Of a DNA stretch of 64,000 nt, positions 9,363-52,688 are shown in pieces. Below the pieces are notes generated by a model that was given only the letters and a program-made list of their open reading frames with translations, did no database searches and was not told the origin of the DNA. Each line of letters begins with the position of its first letter. Positions within the stretch are counted from its first letter, which is position 1. The position numbers and the translations under genes were made by a program. Origin of the DNA: Glutamicibacter soli (GTDB lineage: Bacteria > Actinomycetota > Actinomycetes > Actinomycetales > Micrococcaceae); NCBI RefSeq assembly GCF_003309065.1, contig NZ_POAF01000002.1, forward strand, positions 186,001 through 250,000, in the 5' to 3' direction.

Positions 9363-9977
9363 GTGGCAAGGTACCAGCCGCTGCATGAGCCAACGGACCG
9401 CGAGCGCGCCAAGGCCGAACGCCGAGAGGCGCTGCTGCGCGAGGCAACCCGCCTGTTCGCCCAGCACGGCTACGCCGGGGTGTCGCTGGAAGACCTGGGC
9501 GCCGCGTGCGGCATCTCGGGCCCGGCGGTCTACCGCCACTTCGCCGGCAAGCAGGCGGTGCTCATCGCCCTGCTGGTGGACATGTCCAAGGACATCCACG
9601 ACGGCGGGCAGGCCGCGGCCGAGGCCGGCGGCGAGCCGATCGAGGTGCTCTCCCGGCTGGTGGATTTCCACACCGATTTTTCGCTCTCGCGCCCCGACAT
9701 CCTGCAGGTGCAGGACCGGGACCTGAAATCGCTGCCCAAGGCCGAGCTGGCGCTGGTGCGCAAGCTGCAGAACTCCTATATCGCGCTGTGGACCGCGCAG
9801 CTGGCCAAGCTGCATCCCAGGGACTCGGCGCAGTCGCACCGCTTCCGCGCGCACGCGGTGTTCGGCCTGCTGAACTCCACCGCGCATTCGGCGCACAATC
9901 CGCGCACCAAAAAGTCGGGATTAAAGCCGCTGCTGTCCAATATGGCGCTTGCGGCGCTGACTTCACCGGTAACCTAG
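9363..9977 (+). CDS. TetR-family transcriptional regulator
   Basis: 204 residues from the GTG at 9363, chosen because AAGGAG lies 9 nt upstream; two ATG codons overlap that Shine-Dalgarno and are unlikely starts. The N-terminal helix-turn-helix is clear (EALLREATRLFAQHGYAGVSLEDLGAACGISGPAVYRHFAGK). The C-terminal ligand domain is helical with no recognisable ligand motif. It is divergent from an acyl-CoA dehydrogenase, so an acyl-CoA or related metabolite is a plausible effector. In actinobacteria such pairs often control fatty-acid or branched-chain amino-acid catabolism. Confidence 0.93.
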   Translation: MARYQPLHEPTDRERAKAERREALLREATRLFAQHGYAGVSLEDLGAACGISGPAVYRHFAGKQAVLIALLVDMSKDIHDGGQAAAEAGGEPIEVLSRLVDFHTDFSLSRPDILQVQDRDLKSLPKAELALVRKLQNSYIALWTAQLAKLHPRDSAQSHRFRAHAVFGLLNSTAHSAHNPRTKKSGLKPLLSNMALAALTSPVT

Positions 9978-10044
9978 TTCTAAGCCCTTGCTCTTTGAAG
10001 CCTGCCAACCGGCACGCTTCCCACCCGATCGAAAGGCCTTTGCC

Positions 10045-10506
10045 GTGCAGCTACGTGAGGTCCGCGCTTCCGACTTGGACGCATTCTTCGCTCACCAGCA
10101 GGAACCAGAAGCGAATCTGATGGCCGCTTACCAGGCGCGCAATCCTGCTGATCGTTCGGTGTTCGACCACCACTGGAACCAGATCCTGAACGATCCCACG
10201 GTGCTGGTGCGCACCATCGAGCACGAAGGCGAAGTCGCCGGCTCGATCCTGGTCTTCGACGGCGAAGCCCCCGAGATCAACTTCTGGACCTCCACCAAGT
10301 TCTGGGGCAAGGGCATCACCACCAGCGCGGTGGATGCGTTCCTGGCCGAGTTCACCAAGCGCCCGTTGATGGCCCACGTGGTGCAGGACAACCTCGGCTC
10401 CATCAAGGTCCTTGAGCGCCGCGGCTTCAAGACCGTGGGCACCGAGCAGATCTTCTCCAACGCCCGCGCAGAAGTCGTCACCGAGAACGTCATGCAGCTG
10501 GACTAG
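10045..10506 (+). CDS. GNAT-family N-acetyltransferase (RimJ/RimL-like)
   Basis: 153 residues. The N-terminal LREVRASDLDAFFAHQQEPEANLMA, the central EINFWTSTKFWGKGITTSAVDAFL acetyl-CoA loop and the C-terminal VVQDNLGSIKVLERRGFKTVG are typical of RimJ/RimL-type GNAT acetyltransferases. The GTG at 10045 has GAAAGG 8 nt before it; the upstream extension from 9988 has no support. Substrate (protein N-terminus or small molecule) unknown. It is followed by a very strong terminator. Confidence 0.9.
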   Translation: MQLREVRASDLDAFFAHQQEPEANLMAAYQARNPADRSVFDHHWNQILNDPTVLVRTIEHEGEVAGSILVFDGEAPEINFWTSTKFWGKGITTSAVDAFLAEFTKRPLMAHVVQDNLGSIKVLERRGFKTVGTEQIFSNARAEVVTENVMQLD

Positions 10507-10521
10507 CGGCGCCAAGCATTG

Positions 10522-10564
10522 ATGCACTGAGCCGGTTCCCTTTGCGGGAACCGGCTCAGTGCAT
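10522..10564. terminator. Strong convergent (bidirectional) terminator
   Basis: A perfect 19-bp stem, with the inner arm GAGCCGGTTCCC pairing to GGGAACCGGCTC, closes a 5-nt loop (tttgc). It lies between the GNAT gene on the plus strand and the peptide-transport ATPase gene ending at 10597 on the minus strand. U-tracts are poor, as often in high-GC bacteria. Confidence 0.85.
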
Positions 10565-10596
10565 TGTCGGGGCGAATCGCCGTGCCCCGGCCGGCG

Positions 10597-12288
10597 CTAC
10601 CTGGTGGCGTTCAGCGTCCGCCAGGCCTCGCGGCGGACCGCCTGCTCATGAGGATCCGGCACCGGAGCGGCCGCCAGCAGGCGACGGGTGTAGTCGTGCT
10701 GCGGGGCGTGCAGCACGGTCTTGACCTTGCCCTGCTCCACCGCACGGCCTGACTGCATGACCACCACGTAGTCGGCGAGCATGTCCACCACTGCCAGGTC
10801 GTGGCTGACGAACAGGCAGGCGAAGTTGAAGTCCCGCTGCAGGTCCTGGAGCATTTCCAGCACCACCGCCTGCACCGAGACATCCAGCGCGCTGGTGGGC
10901 TCGTCGGCAATCAGCAGTTCCGGGTTCATCGTCAGCGCGCGGGCGATGCACACACGCTGGCGCTGGCCGCCGGAGAGCTCGTGCGGATAGCGGTTGACCA
11001 CGCTGCGCGGCAGCTTCACCGCGTCCAGCAGCTCCATGGCGCGCTGGATGCGGCTGGCCTTGGTGCCCTCCTTGTGCACCACCATCGGCTCCGTGATGCA
11101 TTCGCCGATCGGGAACCTCGGGTTCAGCGAGGCGGCGGGATCTTGGAAGATCACGCCGATCGACTTGCGCACCTTGCGCGCTTCGCGCGGCGACAGCTTG
11201 GGCAGGTTGTGCCCCTGCACCGAGAGCGTGCCTTCGGCGACCGGAAGCAGGCCGATCACCGCCTTGGCTACGGTCGATTTGCCGGATCCGGACTCGCCCA
11301 CGATGCCCAGCACCTCGCCCTTGGCCACGTCGAAGCTTACGCCCTGAACGGCCCTGAACTTGGTGCCGCGCATGTCGTATTCCAGCACCAGGTCCTTGGC
11401 TTCAAGCACCAGCTCGCGGCCCGCGGAGGCGGTCTGCTCGGCGTGGGCGGCGTTCGCGTCGATCACCACCGGCGAAAGCTTCGGCACCGCCGACAGCAGG
11501 CGCTGGGTGTACTCGTGCTGCGGATGCAGCATCACCTGCTCCACGGTGCCGGTCTCCACCAGATTGCCCTGGAACATCACGGCCACCTGGTCCGCCATGT
11601 CCGCCACTACACCCATGTTGTGGGTGATCAGCAGGATGCCGGTGTTCAGCCGGTCCTTGAGCTCACGCAAAAGGTCGAGGATCTCGGCTTGCACCGTCAC
11701 GTCCAGCGCGGTGGTCGGCTCGTCGGCGATGATGACCTTCGGGTCGCAGGAGATCGCCATGGCAATCACGATGCGCTGACGCTGGCCGCCGGAGAACTGG
11801 TGCGGGTACTGCTTGATGCGCTTGGCCGGGTCGGGAATGCCGACCAGGGTCAGCAGCTCCACGGCGCGGGCGGTGGCTTCCTTGCCGTAGGCGATGCCGT
11901 GCAGTTCCAGCGCCTCGGTCAGCTGGCGCTCGATGGTCAGCACCGGATTCAGCGCGGTCATCGGCTCCTGGAAGACCATGGCGATGTCGGTGGCGCGCAT
12001 CTTGCGCATCTTCCCGGCTTCCAGGCCCACCACGTTCACGTTGCCCACCTTGGCCACGCCCGAGACGTTAGCGTTCTCAGGCAGCAGGCCCATGGCGGCG
12101 GTGGAGGTCACCGACTTGCCGGAGCCGGACTCGCCGACCAGCGCGACCACTTCGCCGGGCTTCACTGCCAGCGACAGCCCCTTGACCGCGTGCACGTCGG
12201 GGCCCGCGGTCTCGAACGTGACCTGCAGGTTGTTGAAGCTCAGCGCGTAGCCCCCGGCAGAGTCATTGGTTGGTGCGGCGTGGCTCAT
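10597..12288 (-). CDS. Peptide ABC transporter, fused double ATPase (DppD-DppF type)
   Basis: 563 residues made of two complete ATP-binding cassettes. Each has Walker A (GESGSGKS), the signature (LSGGQRQR or FSGGQRQR) and Walker B (LLIADEPTSALD / VIIADEPTTALD). The first half resembles OppD/DppD and the second OppF/DppF, and each half is followed by the short oligopeptide-transporter C-terminal extension (..P.H.YT..LL). It powers uptake by the upstream permeases. AAGGAG precedes the ATG, which overlaps the permease stop by 4 bp. It is the last gene of the operon dppA-dppB-dppC-dppDF. Confidence 0.95.
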   Translation of the reverse strand: MSHAAPTNDSAGGYALSFNNLQVTFETAGPDVHAVKGLSLAVKPGEVVALVGESGSGKSVTSTAAMGLLPENANVSGVAKVGNVNVVGLEAGKMRKMRATDIAMVFQEPMTALNPVLTIERQLTEALELHGIAYGKEATARAVELLTLVGIPDPAKRIKQYPHQFSGGQRQRIVIAMAISCDPKVIIADEPTTALDVTVQAEILDLLRELKDRLNTGILLITHNMGVVADMADQVAVMFQGNLVETGTVEQVMLHPQHEYTQRLLSAVPKLSPVVIDANAAHAEQTASAGRELVLEAKDLVLEYDMRGTKFRAVQGVSFDVAKGEVLGIVGESGSGKSTVAKAVIGLLPVAEGTLSVQGHNLPKLSPREARKVRKSIGVIFQDPAASLNPRFPIGECITEPMVVHKEGTKASRIQRAMELLDAVKLPRSVVNRYPHELSGGQRQRVCIARALTMNPELLIADEPTSALDVSVQAVVLEMLQDLQRDFNFACLFVSHDLAVVDMLADYVVVMQSGRAVEQGKVKTVLHAPQHDYTRRLLAAAPVPDPHEQAVRREAWRTLNATR

Positions 12289-13340
12289 GGCTTCTCCTTG
12301 CGGGTTGGCATGGCAAACAGGCCCGCGCGGCGGCGGCGCTTGCCACTGTGGCGTGGGTCGAAGGCATCTCGCAGGCCGTCGCCCAGGAAGTTCACCGACA
12401 GGGCGATGGCCACGATGGTCATGCCCGGCCACCAGAACAGCCACGGCCGGGTGGTGAACGCGTTCTGGTACTGGCTGATCAGCAGGCCCAGCGAGGATTC
12501 CGGAGGCTGGACCCCGAAGCCCAGGAAGGACAGCGAGGATTCCAGCAGGATCGCCCCGGCGATCAGGAAGGTCGAGTTCACCACGATCACGCCGATGGTG
12601 TTGGGCAGCAGGTGCTTGAAAATCACCCGCGAGGTCTTGGAGCCCATGGCCTGGGCCGCGGAGACGAATTCGCGTTCACGCAGCGACAGGATGTCGCCGC
12701 GCACCAGGCGCGCCATGCCGGTCCAGGACACCAGTCCCAGCATGAGCGCCAGCAGGATGATCGAGCTGGATCCGCGCCCGGCGATCTGGCCCAAGACCGC
12801 GGCCAGCACCAGCAGCGGGATGACGATGAACAGGTCGGTGATGCGCATCAGCGCCTCGTCGATCCAGCCGCGGAAATATCCGGCCAGCGCGCCGACGACT
12901 GCGCCGATCGCGGTGGCCACCAGCCCGACGACCACGCCGATGATGATGGACTTCTGCGTCCCGTTCATGACCAGGGCGAAGTAGTCCTTGCCGATGGAGT
13001 CCTGGCCGAAGGGGTGCTCGCCGATCTGGATGCCCGAGCCGCCGAGCCAGGTGGGCAGCAGCGACAAGGTGGGCTTGCCGCCGTTGACCACGGCGCCGGC
13101 GTCGAGGTAGCTCTGTTTCCACCAGCCGGGAATCGGCCCGTAGCCGATCGAGGTGAATGCCAGCAAAGTGATCAGCACGAGGACGATCGCGGAAATCATG
13201 GCCGGCTTGTGGCGCAGGAAGCGTTCCAGGACGATCCGCGACTGGCTCTTGGAAGTTTCGGTCGAGACAGCGAGTTTGGCGTCTTCGACCTCTGCAATGG
13301 ATGTCAGGTTCCCTGGCATCTTGTCGTTTGTGTTACTCAT
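12285..13340 (-). CDS. Peptide ABC transporter permease, DppC/OppC type
   Basis: 351 residues. A 45-residue cytoplasmic N-terminus and the first membrane helix (AMISAIVLVLITLLAF) are followed by an extracytoplasmic loop, then a five-helix permease domain. The EAA-type loop (EREFVSAAQAMGSKTSRVIFKHLLPN) contacts the ATPase. The C-terminus GDGLRDAFDPR is characteristic of OppC/DppC. It pairs with the DppB-type permease just upstream (17 bp gap) and overlaps the ATPase gene by 4 bp. Confidence 0.94.
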   Translation of the reverse strand: MSNTNDKMPGNLTSIAEVEDAKLAVSTETSKSQSRIVLERFLRHKPAMISAIVLVLITLLAFTSIGYGPIPGWWKQSYLDAGAVVNGGKPTLSLLPTWLGGSGIQIGEHPFGQDSIGKDYFALVMNGTQKSIIIGVVVGLVATAIGAVVGALAGYFRGWIDEALMRITDLFIVIPLLVLAAVLGQIAGRGSSSIILLALMLGLVSWTGMARLVRGDILSLREREFVSAAQAMGSKTSRVIFKHLLPNTIGVIVVNSTFLIAGAILLESSLSFLGFGVQPPESSLGLLISQYQNAFTTRPWLFWWPGMTIVAIALSVNFLGDGLRDAFDPRHSGKRRRRAGLFAMPTRKEKP

Positions 13341-13357
13341 CGAATGTCCTTAGTTTC

Positions 13358-14875
13358 CTAGACCCGGATCCGCGGATCGAGAATCGCGTACACAATGTCT
13401 GCCAGGAGGTTGAACAGCACCGCTGCGGTGCCGGTGACCAGGAAGAATGCCATGACCGGTGCGGGGTCCACCGCATGCAGCCCGGTATTGAACAGGTCTC
13501 CCATGCCCTTCCAGCCGAACACCGTCTCGGTTACCACAGCGCCGCCGATCAGGCCGGCGAAGTCGAAGGCCGCGATGGTGGCGATCGGGATCAGCGCGTT
13601 GCGGAATGCATGGCGGAAGATCACGGTGCGTTCGCTCAAGCCTTTGGAGCGTGCGGTGCGGATGTAGTCCTGCTGCTGCACTTCCAGCATCGATGAGCGG
13701 GTGTAGCGCGAGTAGCTTGCCAGCGAGATGATGGCCAGCACGATGGTTGGCAGCAGCAGCTGGGTGGCGTTGTCCAGGAAATGGTCCCAGAAGCCGCCTT
13801 CAAGGTTCGCGGTGGAGGAACCGATGGTTGCGATGGGGCGTCCCTTGAGGTCCAGGAAGCCAGGCCACGCGCGGAAGATGTGGTCCAGCACGGTTAGGCC
13901 GGCGCCGACCAGGCCGACGGTCACCGAAACGCCCATGGCGGCCTTGGACAGGCGGCCCCCCATGAGCTTGCCGATCAGGCCCGGAATGACCACGGCCAGG
14001 ATGGCACCGCCCAGCAGCAGCCATCCGTTCGGTTCCGCCAGGAGCCAGAAGGTCGCGTAGTACATGCCCAGCACTAGCACCGCGGTGATCAAGGCCGGGT
14101 ACAGCACGCGCTTTTCCTTGAGCCCGACGCTCATGGCGGTGGCGGACAGCGCCAGCAGCACCGTCAGCACGATGATGACTGCCGGTCCCATCTGCGGGAA
14201 ACGGTAGAAGTTCAGCCACACGCTGTACTGCAGCAGCAGCGGCACGAAGATGGCAGTGGCCAGGAAGGTGATGCCGCGGCGCTTGAGCGAACCGGCCAGC
14301 AGCATCTGCAGGACCAGACCTGCGACCACGCCGATCAGGATGCTGGTGCCCAGTGAGATCTGGGGGTTCTCCAGCCAGTTGTTGTAGCCGATGGCCATGT
14401 ATTCCTTGAGCAGCACCGCGGCCCAGAACACCGGCAGGGAGAAGAACAGGAAGGTCAGGAAGGTGACGAGGTAGTCGAGACCCGAGTACTGGCGCACGGC
14501 GGTCAGCACGCCGATGGCGATGCCCAGGATGGCTGCGATGACTGTTGCCAGCAGCACCAGTCGCAGGGTTGATGATGCGGCGTTGGCCAGCAGGTCCGTG
14601 ACCTCGATGCCGTTGATATTGCGGCCCAGGTCGCAGGCGCCCACGAAGCACTTGGAAACACCGGTCAGCCAGGTCAGGTACCGCAGGTACCAGGGCTGTT
14701 CCAGGTTCATGTATTCGGTGCGCTGCTGCATCAGGTACTCGCGGTTTTCCGCGTTGCTTTCACGCAGATCGCCGAGCGGGTCGCCGGAATTAATGACCAG
14801 GATATAGAGCAGCAGCGATGCGGCTAACAGCACGCCGGCGGCCGACCCCAGTCTCTTCAGGATGAATTTCAACAC
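13358..14875 (-). CDS. Peptide ABC transporter permease, DppB/OppB type, with large central insertion
   Basis: 505 residues from the GTG at 14875 (start MLKFILKRLGSAAGVLL, typical of DppB, with GAGGA about 10 nt upstream). An ATG 22 codons earlier lies inside the terminator of the preceding gene. DppB proteins are usually about 310-340 residues. Here an extra stretch of roughly 170-190 residues, rich in hydrophobic helices (GTSILIGVVAGLVLQML to VSVTVGLVGAGLTVL), lies between the first helices of the permease domain and its conserved EAA loop (QQQDYIRTARSKGLSERTVIFRHAFRNALIP). The C-terminus YAILDPRIRV is standard. The insert probably adds several membrane helices; its role is unknown. Confidence 0.93.
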   Translation of the reverse strand: MLKFILKRLGSAAGVLLAASLLLYILVINSGDPLGDLRESNAENREYLMQQRTEYMNLEQPWYLRYLTWLTGVSKCFVGACDLGRNINGIEVTDLLANAASSTLRLVLLATVIAAILGIAIGVLTAVRQYSGLDYLVTFLTFLFFSLPVFWAAVLLKEYMAIGYNNWLENPQISLGTSILIGVVAGLVLQMLLAGSLKRRGITFLATAIFVPLLLQYSVWLNFYRFPQMGPAVIIVLTVLLALSATAMSVGLKEKRVLYPALITAVLVLGMYYATFWLLAEPNGWLLLGGAILAVVIPGLIGKLMGGRLSKAAMGVSVTVGLVGAGLTVLDHIFRAWPGFLDLKGRPIATIGSSTANLEGGFWDHFLDNATQLLLPTIVLAIISLASYSRYTRSSMLEVQQQDYIRTARSKGLSERTVIFRHAFRNALIPIATIAAFDFAGLIGGAVVTETVFGWKGMGDLFNTGLHAVDPAPVMAFFLVTGTAAVLFNLLADIVYAILDPRIRV

Positions 14876-14943
14876 GGTACTAACGTCCTCTTTCTTCTCG
14901 CCTTGTGGCGCTCCCGCCTCCGCGATGTTGGAGCCGGACACGA

Positions 14944-14973
14944 CGCGGGGCCCGATGATGATCGGGCCCCGCG
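14944..14973 (-). terminator. Hairpin between the binding-protein and permease genes
   Basis: A perfect 13-bp stem (CGCGGGGCCCGAT / ATCGGGCCCCGCG) has a 4-nt loop. It lies 42 bp after the binding-protein gene and before the permease gene. Such partial terminators commonly raise binding-protein expression above that of the membrane parts and protect the 5' mRNA. Confidence 0.7.
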
Positions 14974-15014
14974 GGCGCTCACAGCTGGTGTATGCGTTTG
15001 TCTAGGCCCAAGGC

Positions 15015-16817
15015 CTACTCAGCACGCATCCACTGCTCGGCGTTCCAGACGATGCCGTTCTGGGTTGCCGTGTGGCGGACATTCTGGATGTCTGCGCCCG
15101 AGGCGCTCAGACCCGGGTGGGCGAACATCGGGATGCCGAACAGGTCATCCCACAGCAGCTTCTCGATCTTCTTGGTCTGCTCCGCGTGGACTGCCGGGTC
15201 CAGCGAGGTGGCCAGGGTCTCCCACGCGGCGTCGACCTCAGCATTCGAGTACTTGCCGTAGTTCTGCGGCTTGCCTGTCGCGTAGATGTTCTGGCCGGAT
15301 GTGATCTGGCCCGAACCGGCCCACGCGAACAGTGCTACCTCGTAGTCGCCGCGCTCCTGGGTTCCGCCCGGTGCGAAGAACTTCGGGTCGCCTGCATCCA
15401 CGATCTCGAAGCCCGCCTTGTCGCACGAGGACTTGATCTGCGCGACCTCGTTGGTGCGGCGTTCGTTCGGCGCCGAGTAGCCGATGCGCACCTTGGTGCC
15501 GACTGCGTCCTGTTCCTCGAGGATCTTCTTGGCACCCTCGATGTCGACCTGGTCGTAGCGTCCGTCATAGGCTGCTGCCACGGTGTCCGCGTAGTTCTCC
15601 TGGAACGGGAAGACTTCGCGCAGGTTCATGACCTGAGCCTCAGGGTTCAGCGGCTTGATCAGGTTGTCGACGATTTCCTGGCGCGGAACGCACATGGCGA
15701 AGGCCTTGCGCAGCTCCAGATTGGTCATCGTGTTGCCCTTGACGAAGTTGAAGTCCAGGTGCTCCCAGGTCAGGGTGTCACCCTGCTGGATGTTGACGGC
15801 GCTGCCCAGCCCCTTGAGCTGTTCCAGGGTATCGACGGTCGGCTGTGGGCCAATGACGTCGAGGTCCTTGTTCTGCAGTGCCTGGACCATGCCGGAATCG
15901 GCAAGGAAGCGGAAGTTCAGTTCCTTGGTTGCCGCCGGGGTGCCGTAGTAGTTCTCATTGGCGGTCAGGGTGACTGACTCGCCAGCCTTCCACGAGCTGA
16001 GCTTGTATGGGCCAGAAACCGGAATGTCTGCTTCGTCAGGAAGGGTGCCCGGCTTGGTGGTCCAGCCTTCGTTCCAGAACTTTGCGGCCTTCTCAAGCTT
16101 CTTGGAGTCGCCATCGCGAACGGCAGCGACGAACTCTTCGGTGCTCAGGCCGCCCTTCTTGGCCACGACGTGGGCCGGGTGCAGCATCCAGGTCTGGATC
16201 TGCCAGTCCGGATCCGGGGCCTTGAACTCAACGGTGAACTCCTTGCCCGCAGGATCGCCCTGAGGGCCCTTCGGGACGGTATCGCCGAGGTCGGTGGAGA
16301 CCGAGTTGAACAGCGGCTTGTCCTTTGATCCCGAATTCAGGTTCAGGTTCTGAGTAGCCCACGCGAGTACCGCGTCGGCGGTGGTGATGTCGGTGCCATC
16401 GGACCACTTGGCGTTGTCTGCGATGGTGTACTTGATGGTCAGCGGGTCGTCGCTGATCTTCTCGAAGCTTCCCAGGTCCTCATTCGGGTAGATCTTCCCG
16501 TCGGTACCGAAGTAGACGAAGCTCGCGAACATCCGGTCGGTAATGCCGGAGTTGTAGGTGGAGTAGGTCTGCGGCGTGTTGCCGTTGTAGCTGATGAATT
16601 CAGGGGCGCCGATGGAAACCTTGATGGCTCCATCCTTGGTCGCGATGTCGCCCAGGTCCGCCAGACCGGTAGTGGTCGCCTCTGCGCCGGCGTTGCCCCC
16701 GCCTGCGGATTCGCTGGCCGATGGGCTGGTTTCGCTTCCGCCTGGGGCACATGCAGACAGCGCCAGTGCCATCGCTGCGCCTACGACGACTGCCTTCGAA
16801 ACGCGTTGGAACCGCAT
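15015..16817 (-). CDS. Peptide ABC transporter substrate-binding lipoprotein (DppA/OppA, SBP family 5)
   Basis: 600 residues. The signal peptide has lipobox ALSAC, then a Ser/Gly/Ala-rich linker, then an SBP_bac_5 domain: KWSDGTDITTADAVLAW is the typical early motif, SGPYKLSSWKAGESVTLTANENYYG the middle one, and NLELRKAFAMCVPRQEIVDN follows. Extracellular lipid-anchored receptor for di- or oligopeptides. AAGGAGG lies 4 nt before the ATG. It is the first gene of the operon, behind a Crp/GlxR-like site. Confidence 0.95.
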   Translation of the reverse strand: MRFQRVSKAVVVGAAMALALSACAPGGSETSPSASESAGGGNAGAEATTTGLADLGDIATKDGAIKVSIGAPEFISYNGNTPQTYSTYNSGITDRMFASFVYFGTDGKIYPNEDLGSFEKISDDPLTIKYTIADNAKWSDGTDITTADAVLAWATQNLNLNSGSKDKPLFNSVSTDLGDTVPKGPQGDPAGKEFTVEFKAPDPDWQIQTWMLHPAHVVAKKGGLSTEEFVAAVRDGDSKKLEKAAKFWNEGWTTKPGTLPDEADIPVSGPYKLSSWKAGESVTLTANENYYGTPAATKELNFRFLADSGMVQALQNKDLDVIGPQPTVDTLEQLKGLGSAVNIQQGDTLTWEHLDFNFVKGNTMTNLELRKAFAMCVPRQEIVDNLIKPLNPEAQVMNLREVFPFQENYADTVAAAYDGRYDQVDIEGAKKILEEQDAVGTKVRIGYSAPNERRTNEVAQIKSSCDKAGFEIVDAGDPKFFAPGGTQERGDYEVALFAWAGSGQITSGQNIYATGKPQNYGKYSNAEVDAAWETLATSLDPAVHAEQTKKIEKLLWDDLFGIPMFAHPGLSASGADIQNVRHTATQNGIVWNAEQWMRAE

Positions 16818-17217
16818 TTCGCCTCCTTGAGATCTTCGATTGATACGAGTTCTGAAACTTCCGAATCAGTGTGGATCAAGTCACACCCGATCCAATGAGC
16901 AATAGACTAACGGGAATTTCCGGTCTTGGATATAGAAAGACTCGCTTCAGATAGTCACGGGAAGGCCACGAAAAGTTAATGCAGGATTTCGCATGTTACC
17001 GGCGAGTTAATGCGAGTTGCCTCACATCCGCAAGATTTCAAGGGTTTCTTTCAGATTGGGAAAAATCAACCAGATGCGCAGCTGAGTCCAAGTCTTGCCC
17101 TGGAGTCGTTTATAACAGTTTGGTAACGCCGGAAGATTCCCGTAATAATCTCAAGCAAATCTTGAATATCGATGTCCTCGCACGTCATCAAAGCAGGCAT
17201 GCATGTCATCAAAACTG
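16818..17217. other. Non-coding interval with promoter region of the first peptide operon
   Basis: A 400-bp AT-richer interval between two minus-strand operons. The part nearest 16817 must hold the dppA promoter and the Crp/GlxR-like site at 16870. I see no convincing gene in the rest: the short open frames have no ribosome-binding site and no family pattern. Confidence 0.6.
16870..16885. promoter_or_regulatory. Crp/GlxR-like binding site upstream of dppA
   Basis: TGTGGATCAAGTCACA matches the Crp/GlxR consensus TGTGA-N6-TCACA at 9 of 10 positions. It is centred 60 bp before the dppA start codon. The assignment rests on the motif only. Confidence 0.5.
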
Positions 17218-17257
17218 AAAAGAACGCCGCAACCGGTATCGGTTGCGGCGTTCTTTT
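17218..17257 (-). terminator. Terminator of the second peptide operon
   Basis: A perfect 18-bp stem including A/T ends (AAAAGAACGCCGCAACCG / CGGTTGCGGCGTTCTTTT) with a 4-nt loop, 18 bp after the ATPase stop. Read on the minus strand the stem ends in TTCTTTT. Confidence 0.92.
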
Positions 17258-17275
17258 CGGCGTGCTCAGCGTCGG

Positions 17276-18919
<1,644 letters not shown>

Positions 18920-26492: not shown

Positions 26493-26984
26493 ATGCAGCT
26501 ACTTGACCAGACGGACCGCCGCATCCTGCTTGCCCTGTCCACCGCCGCCAAGCGGACCGCCTCAGCCGTGGCAACCACCTTGGGCCTGGGCCGCAATACC
26601 GTGCAGACCCGCATCACCCGATTGGAGAACGAGGTCCTCGATTCGCTCGACCGGCGCATCCCCGCGAAGTCGCTGGGTTACGGGCTGCTCTCATTCGTCG
26701 AGCTTCATGTGGACCAACGCCATTTGGAGGACATCGCGGCCAAGCTGGAACAGATCCCTGAGGTGCTCGAGGCGCACGGACTGACCGGCTCGGCGGACAT
26801 CCTGGTCCGGGTCGCCGCCAAGGACGCCGAAGAACTTTTCCGGGTCCACGGCCAGCTGCTGCATATCGAAGGGGTCAACCGGGCCGATTCGGCGCTGTCG
26901 ATGGCGGAGCTGGTCCCCTACCGCACCACGCGGTTGCTGGAGCATTCGCTGGCAGACGGGCCTGCGCGCAAGCAACCTGCATGA
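26493..26984 (+). CDS. Lrp/AsnC-family transcriptional regulator
   Basis: 163 residues. An N-terminal winged helix-turn-helix (LLDQTDRRILLALSTAAKRTASAVATTLGLGRNTVQTRITRLE) is followed by an AsnC ligand-binding (RAM-type) domain containing EVLEAHGLTGSADILVRVAAKDAEELF. Lrp/AsnC proteins bind amino acids, and BkdR-type members activate branched-chain keto-acid dehydrogenase operons. The divergent position next to bkdABC supports that role. Starts at ATG 26493 or GTG 26484 are both possible; neither has a ribosome-binding site. Confidence 0.92.
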   Translation: MQLLDQTDRRILLALSTAAKRTASAVATTLGLGRNTVQTRITRLENEVLDSLDRRIPAKSLGYGLLSFVELHVDQRHLEDIAAKLEQIPEVLEAHGLTGSADILVRVAAKDAEELFRVHGQLLHIEGVNRADSALSMAELVPYRTTRLLEHSLADGPARKQPA

Positions 26985-26995
26985 GCAACGGCACA

Positions 26996-27045
26996 AAGCC
27001 TCCCTGCGGCGCGGGCGCGATCGCGCGGGCGCAGCAGGGAGGCTT
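26996..27045. terminator. Convergent terminator after the Lrp-type regulator
   Basis: A 12-bp outer stem (AAGCCTCCCTGC / GCAGGGAGGCTT) encloses a second self-complementary core (GCGCGATCGCGC). It lies between the plus-strand regulator (stop 26984) and the minus-strand glycosyltransferase (stop 27063) and can serve both. Confidence 0.85.
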
Positions 27046-27062
27046 CACAAAGGTCCGGAGGG

Positions 27063-28346
27063 CTACCTGCCGACCGACACGACGCCGGAGCGATCGAGTT
27101 TGTTCCAGTTCGCAGGCTTGTTGGTGATCTCCTTGAACAGTGCGCTGAGCATCGTCAGCCCGATCAAGACGGAGTAGATCGGCCAAAGCGGAATCGTCCA
27201 CAGGTGGCGCAGATCCGCCGCCGCGCGATTCAGCGCGATGGCGTAGATGGCCAGTGCAATCGAGACAAGAATGCCGAGCCACGCGAGGAAAGCCCACACG
27301 CCATCGCCAATCGGGTTGCTTCCCAGCAGGAACATCACCGGGATCGACAAGAGAACCAGGAGCTGGATCACCGGCATGGCGACCATGTTGAAGGTGTTGA
27401 AGACGAGGAAGAAGCCGAAGGCTCCGAAACGCGGATTTCCGTGCATGGACTTGTGGATCTTGATGGTTTGCAGCAGTCCGCGCGCCCACCGTACGCGCTG
27501 CTTCCACAACCCGCGCAGGGTTGACGGAGATTCCGCGTAGACCAGGGCCCGCGGCGCGAAGTTCACCTGGTATCCGGCCTTGTGGATGCGCCACGTCAGT
27601 TCGAGGTCCTCGCCGATAATCCGCTCATCCAAATTGCCGGCCACGTTCAAGGCGGAGCGCAGGAACGCACCGGAATTGCCGGACACGATGGGCAGGCAGC
27701 CGATGAGCGCCAAGGCGCGGCGCACGACGCCGGTACCCAGGTGCGAGATGACGGTGAGCAGGCGGGTCTGCACGGTATTCAGGTTGACCGGGCGGTCGTC
27801 CCCGCACACCGCGCCGATGCTGGGGTGGTTGAATCCCTTGAGCATCTCGTTGATGGTCTCCTCGCCGAACACGCCGTCGGCATCGACGAAGAGCACTACC
27901 TCGCCGTCGCTGGCCGCGAACCCGCGATTGAGCGCCGCGCCCTTTCCCGCATTTGGCTGGGAAATGCTGGAGACCCGGTGGTCCTTCGCCGCCCATTCAT
28001 CCATGATCCTGGCGGTGCCGTCAGTCGACCCGTCGTCAACGAGGATCACCTCGAAATCCTCGTAGTTGCTGCGCAGGATCGACTCCACGCAGTTGGAGAT
28101 GACCACTTCCTCGTTGTATCCGGGCACCACGATGCTCACGCGCGGACGGGATTCGAAGACCAGCTGCTTGTTGTTCTTGGCGCGGCGGCGCTCGCGGGCG
28201 ACAAACGCCAGCGACATGGGAATGAAGCAGAGCTTGACCAAACCCATTCCGAGGATCAGCCCGCCGCCGACCATGAACAGCCCCACGACCACCATGCCGA
28301 TGGGCGTCGTGATCCCGTCAAAGAAACCATTCAGGAATTCGGTCAT
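27063..28346 (-). CDS. Processive family 2 glycosyltransferase, membrane bound
   Basis: 427 residues. An N-terminal membrane segment (about 15-40) precedes a GT2 catalytic domain with VDDGSTDG (103-110), the metal-binding DADG (155-158), GEDLEL (245-250, general base) and QRVRW (283-287). That last motif marks processive synthases such as PgaC/IcaA, hyaluronan and cellulose synthases. At least three C-terminal membrane helices follow (VAMPVIQLLVLLSIPVMFLL, GVWAFLAWLGILVSIALAIYAI, IYSVLIGLTMLSALF). It probably makes and exports a beta-linked polymer from a nucleotide sugar. It is the last gene of a three-gene unit and overlaps the ATP-grasp gene by 4 bp. Product unknown. Confidence 0.9.
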   Translation of the reverse strand: MTEFLNGFFDGITTPIGMVVVGLFMVGGGLILGMGLVKLCFIPMSLAFVARERRRAKNNKQLVFESRPRVSIVVPGYNEEVVISNCVESILRSNYEDFEVILVDDGSTDGTARIMDEWAAKDHRVSSISQPNAGKGAALNRGFAASDGEVVLFVDADGVFGEETINEMLKGFNHPSIGAVCGDDRPVNLNTVQTRLLTVISHLGTGVVRRALALIGCLPIVSGNSGAFLRSALNVAGNLDERIIGEDLELTWRIHKAGYQVNFAPRALVYAESPSTLRGLWKQRVRWARGLLQTIKIHKSMHGNPRFGAFGFFLVFNTFNMVAMPVIQLLVLLSIPVMFLLGSNPIGDGVWAFLAWLGILVSIALAIYAIALNRAAADLRHLWTIPLWPIYSVLIGLTMLSALFKEITNKPANWNKLDRSGVVSVGR

Positions 28347-29236
28347 GGCCTGCCCCCGGCGGCTGCTAGTGCGCGGGACGATGCGCGCAGCACGGTGGAC
28401 AGCAGCTCGGGAGCCTGCCGGGAGTTCGCCCCGAAGCGGGCGTTGATTTCCAGCACCACCGGCTGGCCGTTGGCGAGGCGGCGGATGTCGAGGTCGGCCT
28501 GGTATTCCAGGCCCACCGCGCGCACCGCGTCCAGTGCGATCTGCTGCACGTCCACGGCTTCATCAGCTGCCACGCGCTCGGTCGACACCGCGTTGCCCAC
28601 AACTCCCTGCTTGAGCTCGGTCTTGCGGACGACCACTGCCAGGTCGTTCTCGCCGTTGCCGTTGAAGACCATCGGCGCGAATTCTTCCCCGCTGGCGAAT
28701 TCCTGCAGGACCCATGAATCATCCAGCGCGGAGAAATCCAGATCGCTGTGGTTCCCCACCACGCCGACCCCGCGGCCGCCCCGGGCGATTCGCGGCTTGA
28801 CGATCAGTGGACGGCCGAGCGCCTCGAAGGCCGCATCCAGGTTCTCGAAGCTGCTTGGAAGCGCCGAGCGCGGGACCGGCACCCCGGCCGCTGCCAGGAC
28901 CTGCATGGTCAGCCACTTGTCGTGGGCGGTGGATACGGCTTCCGGCGATCCGATCATGACGGTGCATCCAGCCAGCTCGGCGCCGGCAGCCGCCACGGCG
29001 GGAAGCTCGTCGCTGACCGTGGGAATCAGCACGTCGATATGGTGCTCGCGGATGATCTCGGCCAAGCGGCCGATCATCGACGGGTCGCTGGCCGCCGGGA
29101 CCTTCTCGATGACCGCGTAGTACTCATTGGCAGTGCTGTCCATGTCGGCGCCGATGACGGTGAAATCGCTTGAGGCAAGCTGCGCCCCGAGGGCTCGGCC
29201 GGCTGGTCCGTTCGCTCCGGTAAACAGGATTCGCAT
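28343..29236 (-). CDS. ATP-grasp domain ligase-like protein
   Basis: 297 residues. The N-terminus MRILFTGANGPAGRALGAQL is a nucleotide-binding-like fold as in carbamoyl-phosphate-synthase-like ATP-grasp proteins. The ATP-grasp core has RPLIVKPRIARGGRGVGVV (the flexible glycine loop) and the metal-binding end VVLEINARFGANS (Glu and Asn ligands). Such enzymes join a carboxylate to an amine or thiol through an acyl phosphate. The gene lies between a glycosyltransferase and a PIG-L deacetylase, overlapping the first by 4 bp and directly abutting the second. An amine freed by the deacetylase is therefore a possible acceptor, but this is inference. Confidence 0.85.
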   Translation of the reverse strand: MRILFTGANGPAGRALGAQLASSDFTVIGADMDSTANEYYAVIEKVPAASDPSMIGRLAEIIREHHIDVLIPTVSDELPAVAAAGAELAGCTVMIGSPEAVSTAHDKWLTMQVLAAAGVPVPRSALPSSFENLDAAFEALGRPLIVKPRIARGGRGVGVVGNHSDLDFSALDDSWVLQEFASGEEFAPMVFNGNGENDLAVVVRKTELKQGVVGNAVSTERVAADEAVDVQQIALDAVRAVGLEYQADLDIRRLANGQPVVLEINARFGANSRQAPELLSTVLRASSRALAAAGGRP

Positions 29237-30154
29237 TTAGAACACTCCAATCGCGGAACCGAGCAGGCGCACTGGCTCGAATCCCTCGGCATACTTCGTT
29301 TTGGCCTGGTTGCCGCGGAAAGCGGCAATACCCTTGAGATTCTCTTCGGTCATGTAGGGCTTGCCCTTCTGGTCGGCGTGCTGAGCCACCGCATGGACCT
29401 TGACGCCGATGTAGTCGGCTACGTCGATGAACACGGCAGGATTGAACTTCCTGGTGACCGACGGGCTCTCAAAGCACAGGATCGACGAATGCCGGCGGGC
29501 CGCACGGAGGGTGGCGAAATGCACAGCATGGTGGTCCTGGTGCTGGTCGTGCTCGGAATGCGTGAAAATCAGGTCGGGATTCAGGACCGTCACCCGTTCT
29601 TCAATGGCCTGGACCATCTCGTTCGTTGAATCGGACAGCTTGGTATCCGGAAGGCTGTGAGTGACCATGCTCTTGGCTCCCATGAAACGGGCTCCGCGCA
29701 TCGCCTCGTTTTCGCGAACGGCTTCGTCACCTCCGACCGCGCCGTTGCTCATCACCAGCACGTGAACTTCGTGTCCCGTATCGGCCAGCTTGGCCAGGGT
29801 GGCACCGCAGGCAATTTCAAGGTCGTCGGGATGGGCGCCGATCGCCAAGACAACCCGCTGCTGCGATTGCGGAACGACGGGCACGATCTGGTTGGTGATC
29901 GCGAAGATCGCCATGCCGAAGGCGAAGACGAGGGTGACCTGGATTGCCATTTCGCGCAATGGCTCCGACTGCCATGGGCCGCTGGCCACGAGCAGGTTGA
30001 CCATGGCCAGGACTATGGATCCCACGACCAGTACCGCGATGAGTTGCGAACCGCGGCGGAAACGCCGCTTGAGATGCTTGCGCTGGCTTGGAAGCGCGAA
30101 GACGAGTGCTGCCGAAAGGCTCAAGGCAGCAGAAATTACAGATGACCATGGCAT
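29237..30154 (-). CDS. Membrane-anchored PIG-L family deacetylase
   Basis: 305 residues from ATG 30154 (GGGGGAAA upstream). Three predicted membrane helices come first (about 4-20, 37-57, 70-92), with a basic KHLKRRFRRG loop between the first two. That loop predicts a cytoplasmic catalytic domain. The catalytic domain carries the zinc motif AHPDDLE (His at about 108) and the distal HSEHDQHQDHHAVH. PIG-L enzymes remove N-acetyl groups from GlcNAc-type substrates, such as GlcNAc-inositol in mycothiol synthesis or GlcNAc lipids. The membrane anchor is not part of the soluble MshB type. First gene of the three-gene unit with the ATP-grasp and GT2 genes. Confidence 0.88.
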   Translation of the reverse strand: MPWSSVISAALSLSAALVFALPSQRKHLKRRFRRGSQLIAVLVVGSIVLAMVNLLVASGPWQSEPLREMAIQVTLVFAFGMAIFAITNQIVPVVPQSQQRVVLAIGAHPDDLEIACGATLAKLADTGHEVHVLVMSNGAVGGDEAVRENEAMRGARFMGAKSMVTHSLPDTKLSDSTNEMVQAIEERVTVLNPDLIFTHSEHDQHQDHHAVHFATLRAARRHSSILCFESPSVTRKFNPAVFIDVADYIGVKVHAVAQHADQKGKPYMTEENLKGIAAFRGNQAKTKYAEGFEPVRLLGSAIGVF

Positions 30155-30889
30155 AAGCCGATTTCCCCCAAAAAGTCGGCGCACCAAATAACCAGAAAAG
30201 CAGTTAGCTGCTTGTCCGGAAATCACAAACAATGACTTAAGACTTCACGATCCCCATCGCAAAGACTCTTGCTCATGAAAAGGTACGCGTATTGATAATT
30301 CCCCTAGATCAATACTTGGTGCAGTTCTCGACATTTACGTCGCAACTTGCAAATTCAAGGTACCTGATTCGTGCATCCAGGCAAAACTTCTTCCACGACT
30401 TCGCGCATCGCCACTCGAAATCCACGAACTTTCAAGGCTCCACCCCACTCGCTCGAACTGCGGCTTCACGTGCAGTTGGGCGAACGTAGATGCTGCCTTC
30501 CGCGCCGTAATTCCGGCCTTCAATCCCTGGCCGCGGCCATGAAATCACCGCTGGCGCAGAAGTTCCGAGCTAGCAGGAAAGTCATTAATCCGCGTCTCCA
30601 AGTCCCCAAAAATTTCGTTCGGAACGTTGAAAATCCTCGCGTAACAATGTGTCTTTTTCGCAATCAGCGACCCCTCCACGCGCTTGCGTCCATGGATTTC
30701 CCCGTCCGGAAAGTCGCGTCACCGGGTCTGCCGAGCACCTGACTGCCGGGTCGCCCGACTGTCCCGGGCCAGCGCTTGGCAAGGCCGGCAGGAACACCCA
30801 ATCCGCCGTATCCGAGGTGGCTGCTCCGCCCTCAGGCAGGTCGATGCATGACACCGCGCAGCGGCGCGCCACAGCATGGCGGCTCAGAA
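30155..30889. other. Long non-coding interval upstream of the PIG-L unit
   Basis: About 730 bp without a gene I can support. The first 450 bp are clearly AT-richer than the neighbouring genes and must contain the promoter of the PIG-L/ATP-grasp/GT2 unit and a strong inverted repeat at 30289. Short frames in all directions lack ribosome-binding sites and family patterns. The rest, up to the symporter terminator, is GC-rich and looks like decayed or intergenic sequence. Confidence 0.55.
30289..30315. promoter_or_regulatory. Perfect 8-bp inverted repeat, candidate operator
   Basis: GTATTGAT and ATCAATAC are exact inverted copies separated by 11 bp (aattcccctag). The repeat lies 135 bp upstream of the PIG-L start in an AT-rich stretch. 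The 19-bp centre-to-centre spacing (two helical turns) suits a dimeric regulator better than a terminator. Confidence 0.45.
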
Positions 30890-30930
30890 ATGCGGACGGG
30901 ACCAGCCTGAGTGGCTGATCCCGTCCGCAT
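30890..30930 (-). terminator. Terminator of the symporter operon
   Basis: A 12-bp outer stem (ATGCGGACGGGA / TCCCGTCCGCAT) and an inner CAGCC/GGCTG stem with TGAG loop. It starts 31 bp after the symporter stop; a short TTT follows on the minus strand. Confidence 0.82.
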
Positions 30931-30960
30931 CGGTTTTCCGCTAGGTGATTGAGCAGAAGG

Positions 30961-32583
30961 CTAGTGGTCGACTGCCTTCTCTGCACCGACACCGGTCAGC
31001 GAGCGAACTTCCATTTCCGCCGCCTTCTTGGGATCCTCGCTTCCCGGATCGGTGATCGAGCCCAGCCAGCCGAGCAGGAATGCCAGCGGGATGGAGACGA
31101 GGCCCGGGTTGGCCAGCGGGAAGATCGAGATATCGATGCTCGGGATCATCGAGGTTGCCGCACCGGAGAAGACCGGCGAGAAGATGATCAGCAGGATGGC
31201 CGAGCCCAGGCCACCGTACATCGACCAGACTGCACCGCGGGTCTTGAAGCCCTTCCAGAACAGCGAGTAGAGGATGGTCGGAAGGTTGGCCGAGGCAGCT
31301 ACCGCGAAGGCCAGCGCCACCAGGAAGGCGACGTTCTGGCCCTGGGCACCGATGCCGCCGGCGATCGCGAAGACGCCGATGACCAGTACGGTGCGACGGG
31401 CAACCTTCATTTCCTTCTCCGGGGTGCTCTTGCCCTTGGAGATGACCGATGCGTAGACATCGTGGGCGAAGGAAGCAGCTGCGGTGATGGTCAGGCCGGC
31501 TACCACCGCCAGGATGGTTGCGAAGGCCACCGCGGAGATCAGGCCCAGCAGCAGCGTGCCGCCCAGTTCGTAGGCCAGCAGCGGGGCTGCGGAGTTCACG
31601 CCGCCCGGGGCGGCCTTGATCTTGTCCGGGCCGATCAGGGCGCCGGCGCCGAAGCCGAGGACCAGGGTGAACAGGTAGAAGGCACCGATCAGCCAGATGG
31701 CCCAGACGACCGACTTGCGGGCTTCCTTGGCGGTTGGCACGGTGTAAAAGCGCATCAGCACGTGCGGCAAACCTGCGGTGCCGAGCACCAAGGCCAGGGC
31801 CAGGGAGATGAAGTCGAGCTTTGAGGTTTCGGACTTGCCATACTGCATGCCCGGGTTCAGGATCTCAGGGTTGCCAGCCACTTCGGCGGCCTTGCCTAGC
31901 AGCTCGGAGAAGTTGAATCCGAACATGGCCAGGGTCCACACGGTCATGATCAGGGCGCCGGCGATGAGCAGGCAGGCCTTGATGATCTGCACCCAGGTGG
32001 TGCCCTTCATGCCGCCGACCAGGACGTATAGGATCATCAGCGCGCCGACGATGACGATCACCAGCGACTGGCCTGCCTTGGAGTCGATGCCCAGCAGCAG
32101 GGACACCAGTGCGCCGGCGCCGGCCATTTGCGCCAGCAGGTAGAACACGCACACCGCGAGGGTGGAGATCGCCGCGGCGATGCGCACAGGACGCTGCTTC
32201 AGGCGGAAGGAAAGCACATCGGCCATGGTGAACTTGCCGGTGTTGCGCAGCAGCTCGGCCACGAGCAGCAGGGCAACCAGCCAGGCCACGAGGAAGCCGA
32301 TGGAGTACAGGAAGCCGTCGTAGCCGTTGATGGCGATGGCGCCGACGATGCCCAGGAAGGATGCCGCCGACAGGTAGTCGCCGGCGATGGCGGTGCCATT
32401 CTGGGTTCCGGTGAAGGAGCGTCCGCCGGCGTAGTAGTCAGCGGCGGTCTTGTTGTTCTTGCTGGCTCGGAGCACGATCACCAGGGTGACGCCGACGAAG
32501 GCGACGAAGATGGCGATGTTCACCAGCGGGTTGCCGACAGTGGTCTTCTCAGCCGCCGCCGCAAGGATGGTTAGGTTGTTCAC
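30961..32583 (-). CDS. Sodium:solute symporter, acetate/monocarboxylate type (ActP/MctC-like)
   Basis: 540 residues with about 13 membrane helices. SSS-family landmarks are AADYYAGGRSFTGTQNGTAIAGDYLSAASFLG near the N-terminus, GTAGLPHVLMRFYTVPTAKEARKS in the middle, and VAGLTITAAASFAHDVYA. This set is typical of ActP (acetate, glyoxylate) and the corynebacterial MctC (acetate, propionate, pyruvate). It overlaps the DUF485 gene upstream by 4 bp, the common two-gene arrangement. Probable role: uptake of short carboxylates with a cation. It is divergent from a LytS-type kinase. Confidence 0.92.
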   Translation of the reverse strand: MNNLTILAAAAEKTTVGNPLVNIAIFVAFVGVTLVIVLRASKNNKTAADYYAGGRSFTGTQNGTAIAGDYLSAASFLGIVGAIAINGYDGFLYSIGFLVAWLVALLLVAELLRNTGKFTMADVLSFRLKQRPVRIAAAISTLAVCVFYLLAQMAGAGALVSLLLGIDSKAGQSLVIVIVGALMILYVLVGGMKGTTWVQIIKACLLIAGALIMTVWTLAMFGFNFSELLGKAAEVAGNPEILNPGMQYGKSETSKLDFISLALALVLGTAGLPHVLMRFYTVPTAKEARKSVVWAIWLIGAFYLFTLVLGFGAGALIGPDKIKAAPGGVNSAAPLLAYELGGTLLLGLISAVAFATILAVVAGLTITAAASFAHDVYASVISKGKSTPEKEMKVARRTVLVIGVFAIAGGIGAQGQNVAFLVALAFAVAASANLPTILYSLFWKGFKTRGAVWSMYGGLGSAILLIIFSPVFSGAATSMIPSIDISIFPLANPGLVSIPLAFLLGWLGSITDPGSEDPKKAAEMEVRSLTGVGAEKAVDH

Positions 32584-49852: not shown

Positions 49853-51373
49853 ATGGGTACGCCAATGCCTTCCATGCAAAGAGTCACCGTCGATTCGCCG
49901 CCCGGCGACAGCTCGCTGTTATGCGCGCAGACCGCGGCGCAATTCGAAACCGAGACCGCCCGCGTAGTGAGCCATGTGGCCGCGCAGCTATCCACCGTGG
50001 CCTCTCCCGCCACCGGCGCAACCCCAGATCAACTCCGGCCGGCCATCGAGGCGGTGGACCTGAACAGCCCGCTGGGCAATCTCACCGAGGCCTTGGAGGA
50101 AATCCAGCATCTCTACTTGCGCGATGCGATCTACTTCCACGACACCCGTTACGCCGCCCATCTGAACTGCCCCGTGGCCATCCCCGCGGCAGCCATCGAG
50201 GCAGTGGTCACCAGCGTGAATACGTCGATGGACACCTTCGATCAAAGCGCCGGGGCAACCCTGATCGAACGCAAGCTCGTGGACTGGACCGCAGGCCTCA
50301 TCGGCTTCGATGTCCAGGGCGCGGATGGGATCTTCACCTCCGGCGGCACCCAATCCAACCTCCAAGCCATGCTGATCGCCCGGAACATCGCGGCCTCCAA
50401 GCTGGGCGGTCCGCTGCCCCACCGCCTGTCGAGGCTCCGGATCTACTGCTCTGCCGATGCCCATTTCTCCATCCGCGATGCCGCCATGCTGCTCGGCCTG
50501 GGCAGCGAGGCAGCCGTAGCGATTCCCACCGACTCCCTGCACCGCATGGATCCAGCCGCCCTGCGCCGGCAGATCGATGCGGATCTGCAGGCAGGGCTGC
50601 AGCCGATGAGCATCAGCGCAACGGCCGGCACCACCGACTTCGGCGCCATCGATCCACTGCTCGAACTGCGGCGCATCGCCTCGGAGCACGGAACCTGGCT
50701 GCATGTCGACGCCGCCTACGGGTGCGGCTTGCTGATCTCCCGGCACCACCGCAGCCGTCTAGCCGGCATCGAATCCGCGGACTCCGTGACGGTGGACTAC
50801 CACAAGTCGTTCTTCCAGCCCATCGGATCCAGCGCGCTCATTTTGGCCCGCGGCCGGGATTTCGGTTCCATCGCCCATTACGCCGAGTACCTCAATCCGC
50901 GCTCCGAAGCCGCTGGCAGCGCCAACCAAGTGGACAAGTCCCTGCAGACCACGCGCCGCTTCGATGCCCTGAAGCTATGGACGACGCTGCGCACGCTGGG
51001 CGCAGACCGGCTGGGATCCATGTTCGACCAGGTGATCGAGCTGGCGGAGATGGCCGAGCGCGAGGTGGCCCTGCGCGACGAGCTGCGGCTGGCCGCCCCG
51101 GTGCAGCTGAGCACGCTGGTCTTCGCCTTCAACCAACCGCATCTTTCCTTGCCGCAGGCGCAGAAGAACCAGCTCGCCGACCAGATCCGCCACCGGCTCT
51201 ATGCCTCCGGCGAAGCCATGATCGCCGCCACCACCCACCACGGCGAGCGCCTGCTAAAGCTCACCTTGTTGAACCCGAACACGTCCCTGTCCGATATCAG
51301 CGCCATCCTCGATGCCATCTGCAAGGCAGGACGCGAAGTACTTTCCGATTTCGAAGCTGGAGTATCACTGTGA
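49853..51373 (+). CDS. desA: PLP-dependent lysine/diamine-forming decarboxylase (DesA/DfoJ type)
   Basis: 506 residues, group II (glutamate/DOPA decarboxylase-like) fold. Visible are GGTQSNLQAM, the PLP-stacking region, HVDAAYGCG (Asp that holds the pyridine nitrogen) and VDYHKSFFQP with the Schiff-base Lys at residue 318. In the desferrioxamine pathway it turns lysine into cadaverine. AGGAG precedes the ATG. Behind an iron box and overlapping desB by 4 bp (GTGA). Related enzymes decarboxylate 2,4-diaminobutyrate or aspartate, but the following genes favour lysine. Confidence 0.92.
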   Translation: MGTPMPSMQRVTVDSPPGDSSLLCAQTAAQFETETARVVSHVAAQLSTVASPATGATPDQLRPAIEAVDLNSPLGNLTEALEEIQHLYLRDAIYFHDTRYAAHLNCPVAIPAAAIEAVVTSVNTSMDTFDQSAGATLIERKLVDWTAGLIGFDVQGADGIFTSGGTQSNLQAMLIARNIAASKLGGPLPHRLSRLRIYCSADAHFSIRDAAMLLGLGSEAAVAIPTDSLHRMDPAALRRQIDADLQAGLQPMSISATAGTTDFGAIDPLLELRRIASEHGTWLHVDAAYGCGLLISRHHRSRLAGIESADSVTVDYHKSFFQPIGSSALILARGRDFGSIAHYAEYLNPRSEAAGSANQVDKSLQTTRRFDALKLWTTLRTLGADRLGSMFDQVIELAEMAEREVALRDELRLAAPVQLSTLVFAFNQPHLSLPQAQKNQLADQIRHRLYASGEAMIAATTHHGERLLKLTLLNPNTSLSDISAILDAICKAGREVLSDFEAGVSL

Positions 51374-52680: not shown

Positions 52681-52688
52681 GAGCACCC

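Follow-up and report, generated by a model that had tools for sequence, protein, structure and literature searches.

A recurrent three-gene operon in soil bacteria related to Arthrobacter that probably builds a chemically modified cell-surface sugar

The 64,000-nucleotide stretch of the Glutamicibacter soli genome analysed here (contig NZ_POAF01000002.1, positions 186,001 to 250,000; hereafter the window) carries on its minus strand three closely packed genes that are transcribed in the order PIG-L, ATP-grasp, GT2. The first (30154-29237) encodes a PIG-L family N-deacetylase of 305 amino acids (aa), in which three predicted N-terminal membrane segments precede a catalytic domain with HPDD-E and HQDH motifs. 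The second (29236-28343) encodes a PRK12767/CarB-like ATP-grasp ligase of 297 aa, without a membrane segment and with K107, K147, D248, D250, E263 and N265 present, and the third (28346-27063) a PgaC/IcaA-like membrane glycosyltransferase of family 2 (GT2) of 427 aa, with DD, DAD, GED and QxxRW motifs. The PIG-L and ATP-grasp genes are separated by 0 bp, while the ATP-grasp and GT2 genes overlap by 4 bp, and the open reading frames (ORFs), coordinates and junctions given for this unit by an earlier, sequence-only reading were all confirmed. The ATG start that yields a PIG-L protein of 305 aa is matched by the ortholog at another locus (L017), although translation might instead begin further upstream, at a TTG at 30232, and give a longer protein.

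The 806-bp region upstream of the operon (30155..30960, G+C 0.562, no strand assigned) is the presumed site of its promoter; a promoter scan of 26900-31100 returned no sigma-70-type promoter, and the region has no clear similarity to the upstream region of L017. At the other end, a gap of 78 bp (26985..27062, likewise without strand) leads to a convergent Lrp-family gene and contains an inverted repeat that by eye reads as a shared terminator; this repeat was not among the results of a terminator scan. An Rfam scan gave three tRNAs and nothing else, the PADLOC models of known anti-phage defence assigned no family to the three proteins, and no relative was found in viral contigs.

All three proteins score above the Pfam gathering cut-offs (Glycos_transf_2, E-value 7.3e-34; ATP-grasp_3, 1.5e-13; PIG-L, 3.4e-27). 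The deacetylase belongs to the PIG-L superfamily with 95.9 bits against PF02585 (cut-off 28.2) and the ligase to the ATP-grasp superfamily with 51.5 bits (cut-off 23.2), while the glycosyltransferase has the motif set of processive enzymes (DD, DxD, xED and QxxRW) together with flanking transmembrane segments. None of the three reaches an NCBIfam equivalog cut-off, the best models being PgaC_IcaA for the GT2 (204.9 bits, cut-off 422.3), PRK12767 for the ATP-grasp (116 bits, cut-off 218) and BshB1 for the PIG-L (87.1 bits, cut-off 182.5). The earlier description of the GT2 as PgaC-like therefore holds for the identity of its best model, but at 205 bits the protein lies far below the 422 bits asked of that family. 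It also matches Glyco_transf_21 (51.3 bits, cut-off 21.7), and the QxxRW motif is also found in enzymes that add one single sugar, so a glycolipid would be compatible with this motif as a product.

Hydropathy analysis gave no membrane segment in the ATP-grasp and placed segments near both ends of the GT2. In the PIG-L of the window it indicated three N-terminal segments with seven Lys/Arg residues in the loop after the first; among nine orthologs tested (the window included), three segments were found in seven and two in those of L017 and L037, with 5-7 Lys/Arg in the first loop of all nine and 0-1 in the next loop. By the positive-inside rule, this charge predicts that the catalytic domain lies on the cytoplasmic side, in agreement with the cytoplasm-facing deacetylase proposed earlier. 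The best PDB match of the ATP-grasp profile was 2pn1, an entry named carbamoylphosphate synthase large subunit.

The three genes occur together at 17 loci (the window, L010, L012, L017, L018, L019, L033, L035, L036, L037, L138, L139, L141, L142, L143, L144 and L145), which belong to three families of Micrococcales according to the kinship labels of the search tool. Their order is kept at 16 of these; the exception is L036 (genome G108, 9560-17990), in which the ATP-grasp gene comes first and is followed by two tandem sets of PIG-L, GT2 and a fourth gene. Since the unit is found again in other genomes, it is not a chance neighbourhood, and we conclude that the trio is genuine and conserved and made up of known enzyme families; the sequence-only reading had likewise treated the three genes as one unit. 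Two of the 17 loci lie on a plasmid of a named Arthrobacter and in Paenarthrobacter histidinolovorans.

How common the unit appears depends on where it is sought. A protein search of 58 genomes, with that of the window among them, gave the ATP-grasp in four, which all belong to the window's genus. In 295 genomes of the family, profile scans detected the ATP-grasp in 13 (E <= 1e-40), the GT2 in nine (E <= 1e-110), all nine also with the ATP-grasp, and the PIG-L in 14 (E <= 1e-50), eight of which are among the 13 genomes with the ATP-grasp; eight genomes have all three. In the order, 14 of 297 genomes carry the ATP-grasp and the complete trio is present in 10 of the 14, so where the ATP-grasp occurs, adjacency is not the rare event that had been named as evidence against a functional unit. 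Among 396 genomes scanned across the phylum, the own genome alone matched, and set against 14 of 297 in the order, this 1 of 396 indicates that the apparent scarcity depends on the sample.

Parts of the unit are also found apart. Six loci have the ATP-grasp without an orthologous PIG-L in the region: for L034, L038, L039, L040 and L041 this absence is based on the fetched regions and the family scan (E <= 1e-50), assuming the same 295 genomes, and for L140, which carries a different, non-orthologous PIG-L nearby, on the fetched region only. Weaker or outlying ATP-grasps outside the trio were seen at L146, L147, L013, L014 (Levilinea), L015 and L016 (both weak matches, metagenome-assembled) and L011 (Sinorhizobium), the last adjoining a PHP gene and an oxidoreductase gene. 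At L013:7992-9862 of Levilinea saccharolytica, the ATP-grasp is 45% identical and adjoins an epimerase-like gene, and no PIG-L or GT2 ortholog was matched at that locus; Levilinea belongs to the Chloroflexota. Conversely, PIG-L orthologs outside the trio occur at six loci in five genomes that belong to a single other genus; the fetched regions of these loci gave no ATP-grasp or GT2 match. Genome G306, a sixth case, shows a partial PIG-L match.

Where the trio is complete, its genes are tightly coupled and their products intact. PIG-L/ATP-grasp junctions measure 0-4 bp at all 16 loci of canonical order, and the ATP-grasp/GT2 junction is a 4-bp overlap at 12 of the 16 and not clearly so at L017, L037, L139 and L143, in a reading that preferred start codons near the junction and thus favours short overlaps. 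The PIG-L residues H108, P109, D110, D111, E113, H205, D207 and H208, which we take to form the zinc site, are conserved in all 18 proteins compared, of which L036 contributes two. At each of the 17 complete loci, eight ATP-grasp positions, presumably ATP/Mg residues, are conserved and the GT2 motifs are undamaged; these motifs are also intact at L140. Among the six loci that lack an orthologous PIG-L, four (L038, L039, L040 and L041) encode ATP-grasps with substitutions at catalytic positions. Four GT2s are present at the six loci, and three of them are damaged or truncated, with motifs lost in L039 and L041 and a truncation in L038. Six of the eight ATP-grasp positions are lost in the more distant protein of L146. 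ATP-grasp integrity differs between the 17 complete and the six PIG-L-less loci with a p of 0.0017, a value that counts related loci as independent; the Fisher values for the residues likewise ignore kinship. Judged by these residues, loss of the PIG-L tends to go with decay of the ATP-grasp and the enzymes look interdependent, a pattern that fits one enzyme acting on the product of the other.

The history of the operon within the genus can be followed at its own site, between an SSF symporter gene and the convergent Lrp-family gene (26955-30961). In 18 genomes of the genus this junction holds the trio in two (the own genome and G008), other genes in three (G001, G004 and G009) and next to nothing in 13, where the aligned gene ends are 43-113 bp apart; one of the latter, G017, shares 93% identity with the window across the flanking DNA. 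G013 and G016 have the operon at another genomic place, in versions that group apart from that of the window in all three gene trees, and the second site and separate grouping together indicate that the genus carries two operon lineages. Loss in several species is the likeliest account of the patchy presence. Groups common to the three trees, whose agreement was judged by such shared groups, are window-L017-L035, L010-L012-L033 and L018-L019, some of them with support below the starred level of the tree program. By eye, an ORF resembling a luciferase-like oxidoreductase is among the other genes found at the junction.

At other loci the operon has recurring neighbours. A gene for a fourth protein follows the GT2 gene at nine of the 17 loci (L010, L018, L019, L033, L035, L036, L037, L141 and L143), and by eye the proteins of L010, L018, L019, L033 and L037 start with a membrane segment or lipobox. 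No Pfam family was found for three of these proteins and no NCBIfam family for two, the profile found no PDB relative at E <= 1, and there was no PgaB match; a TIM-barrel hydrolase was a guess by eye that we do not claim. The profile matched 10 of the 295 family genomes and gave no match in the genome of the window, an empty answer that alone shows nothing. Outside the trio, the fourth gene is present in G009, while G011, G003 and G002 contain it in broken or short pieces.

At nine of the 17 loci the operon adjoins, upstream or downstream, a gene for a sigma factor, and these sigma factors form one family. All five members tested (L012, L018, L019, L138 and L142) combine Sigma70_r2 with a zf-HC2 zinc finger, the latter below cut-off in L012, and have long Pro/Thr-rich or Ig-like tails; these extracytoplasmic function (ECF) sigma factors are candidate surface sensors for the product of the operon. 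Their layout is similar to that of the ECF52 type (SCO4117), compared by its description in PMC5826349 and PMC8999054. Five of the 17 loci further encode a Big_8-type surface protein with immunoglobulin-like (Ig) domains, which at L138 has a collagen-binding domain over cut-off. Beside the operon of the window there is no fourth protein, no Big_8 protein and, in difference to the ECF52 arrangement, no such sigma factor.

We give about even credence to the trio being a biosynthetic operon for an amino-sugar conjugate of the cell envelope. In such a pathway, the GT2 would make a glycan of the N-acetylglucosamine (GlcNAc) type, the membrane-tethered PIG-L, with its predicted topology and presumed substrate, would remove N-acetyl groups on the cytoplasmic side, and the soluble ATP-grasp, by analogy with its family, would use ATP to form an amide between the freed amine and a carboxylate, probably that of an amino acid. 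The product would then leave the cell and, at many other loci, may be handled or sensed by the exported fourth protein, the Ig-domain surface protein or the membrane-anchored ECF sigma factor.

Several observations weigh against this proposal. The substrate, the product, the acyl donor and the order of steps are ones that we infer, and the unit contains no gene for nucleotide-sugar supply or export. A structure model of the ATP-grasp, built from a four-sequence alignment, had a mean predicted local distance difference test score (pLDDT) of 48, too poor for use. In Levilinea an ATP-grasp stands outside the trio, beside the epimerase-like gene, and at L034 and L140 the ATP-grasp residues are intact despite the missing PIG-L ortholog, so the dependence is not strict. 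The decayed loci L038-L041, moreover, come from one genus and three of them share a site, which leaves few independent events, and L036 is placed differently in the PIG-L and ATP-grasp trees.

Comparison with known systems suggests where the logic of the trio belongs. With pgaABCD and icaADBC it shares an N-deacetylase and, broadly, the family of the GT2, which is 34% identical to E. coli PgaC over 248 aa. The poly-N-acetylglucosamine (PNAG) deacetylase, however, is an exported enzyme of carbohydrate esterase family 4 (CE4, NodB-type), whereas that of the trio is a PF02585 PIG-L with a predicted cytoplasmic domain; the trio also adds an ATP-grasp, has no PgaA gene in the unit, falls short of the PgaC/IcaA equivalog (204.9 of 422.3 bits) and, where there is a fourth protein, shows no PgaB match in it. 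No PgaD/IcaD partner lies next to the GT2, where 78 bp lead to the convergent gene, a negative that covers this neighbourhood and not the remainder of the genome. With a cytoplasm-facing PIG-L in place of an exported deacetylase, tailoring would take place before or during export. Nod factor synthesis, in turn, uses a membrane GT2, N-deacetylation and an amide bond on the freed amine, which is the chemistry proposed here, but the GT2 is no NodC-type synthase (95 of 550 bits against the NodC model), and PIG-L and ATP-grasp would replace NodB and NodA. In mycothiol and bacillithiol synthesis (MshA-B-C, BshA-B-C), a PIG-L deacetylase acts first and the glucosamine amine that it frees then takes part in a ligation, a sequence of steps that the trio may share, although it uses a membrane GT2 and an ATP-grasp ligase and its PIG-L stays below the cut-offs of MshB (17.2 of 224.35 bits), Mca (22.7 of 277.15), BshB1 (87.1 of 182.5) and BshB2 (33.1 of 195.25). 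The ligase itself is nearest among NCBIfam models to the PRK12767 'carbamoyl phosphate synthase-like' ATP-grasp proteins, yet below their 218-bit cut-off. By such analogy, the trio appears nearer to Nod factor or mycothiol synthesis than to PNAG, although its GT2 scores best with PgaC.

Taken one speculative step further, the envelope conjugate could come from a Nod-factor-like assembly line rebuilt from other families. Here the membrane GT2 would produce a short oligomer of amino sugars, a single amine would be set free by the cytoplasm-facing PIG-L, and the ATP-grasp would then attach an amino acid or another carboxylate as a cap. The resulting aminoacylated oligosaccharide would be displayed on the cell or released from it, and at many other loci it would have a dedicated exported protein for its processing and a sigma factor that senses the surface. 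We hold this version only tentatively, and two other orders of events deserve to be set beside it. PgaC-class synthases export the chain during synthesis, so that cytoplasmic tailoring would best precede polymerization: PIG-L and ATP-grasp might thus convert UDP-GlcNAc, or a related nucleotide sugar, into an N-acylated UDP-amino sugar that the GT2 polymerizes and extrudes as a modified exopolysaccharide. The predicted cytoplasmic PIG-L domain, the ATP-grasp without membrane segment and the PgaC_IcaA best model of the GT2 all suit this possibility, but nucleotide sugars are soluble, whereas membrane segments are present in all nine PIG-L orthologs tested, and the unit has no nucleotide-sugar gene; we regard it as rather unlikely. 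The membrane tether of the PIG-L speaks for a glycolipid route, in which the GT2 would add one or a few amino sugars to a lipid in the manner of GT21/ceramide glucosyltransferase, the PIG-L would deacetylate the glycolipid as eukaryotic PIG-L does GlcNAc-phosphatidylinositol, and the ATP-grasp would aminoacylate it. The Glyco_transf_21 match above cut-off points the same way, whereas the best match of the GT2 is PgaC_IcaA, at 204.9 bits, and no lipid-acting gene is present in the unit, leaving this, too, a doubtful account.

Two readings without a surface sugar appear much less probable. A pathway to a small molecule, similar to those for mycothiol and bacillithiol and without relation to the cell surface, would have the same succession of PIG-L and amide formation, and BshB1 is the best NCBIfam match of the PIG-L, at 87.1 against 182.5 bits. 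The mycothiol and bacillithiol pathways, however, use soluble enzymes of glycosyltransferase family 4 and other ligase families, while in the trio the GT2 and PIG-L are membrane proteins, and the operon elsewhere adjoins genes for surface proteins and for a membrane-bound sigma factor; we consider such a pathway very unlikely. Still more improbable is that a mobile island joined unrelated enzymes without a joint pathway: the patchy distribution, the empty site in a close relative and the different sites within one genus speak for it, but order is fixed and junctions are short at 16 loci of three families, tree groups are held in common and the enzymes decay jointly.

If the proposed envelope pathway is correct, it would be an undescribed way of placing amide-linked groups on surface amino sugars in soil actinobacteria. 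Literature searches by the parts of the trio, and on PNAG in actinobacteria, butirosin as an analogue and ECF sigma factors, returned no title or abstract describing the trio. In PMC4000134, the gene table includes an ATP-grasp ligase within a glycan cluster; a deacetylase is not named in that table. With only three genes, clear catalytic residues and related strains with and without the operon, a product could be found by comparison of envelopes and by tests of the three enzymes.

Some further observations concern related or nearby sequences. A plasmid of Kocuria rosea (L115:4912-8217) encodes a GT2 32% identical to that of the window, annotated as a polysaccharide deacetylase fusion, beside a chitinase gene. 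Elsewhere in the window, 49853-55031 holds a likely cluster for a siderophore of the NRPS-independent (NIS) type, consisting of a pyridoxal phosphate-dependent decarboxylase, a hydroxylase-like ORF and an acetyltransferase-IucA/IucC-FhuF fusion; by eye, the ORF in the frame ending at 52680 resembles a lysine/ornithine N-hydroxylase.

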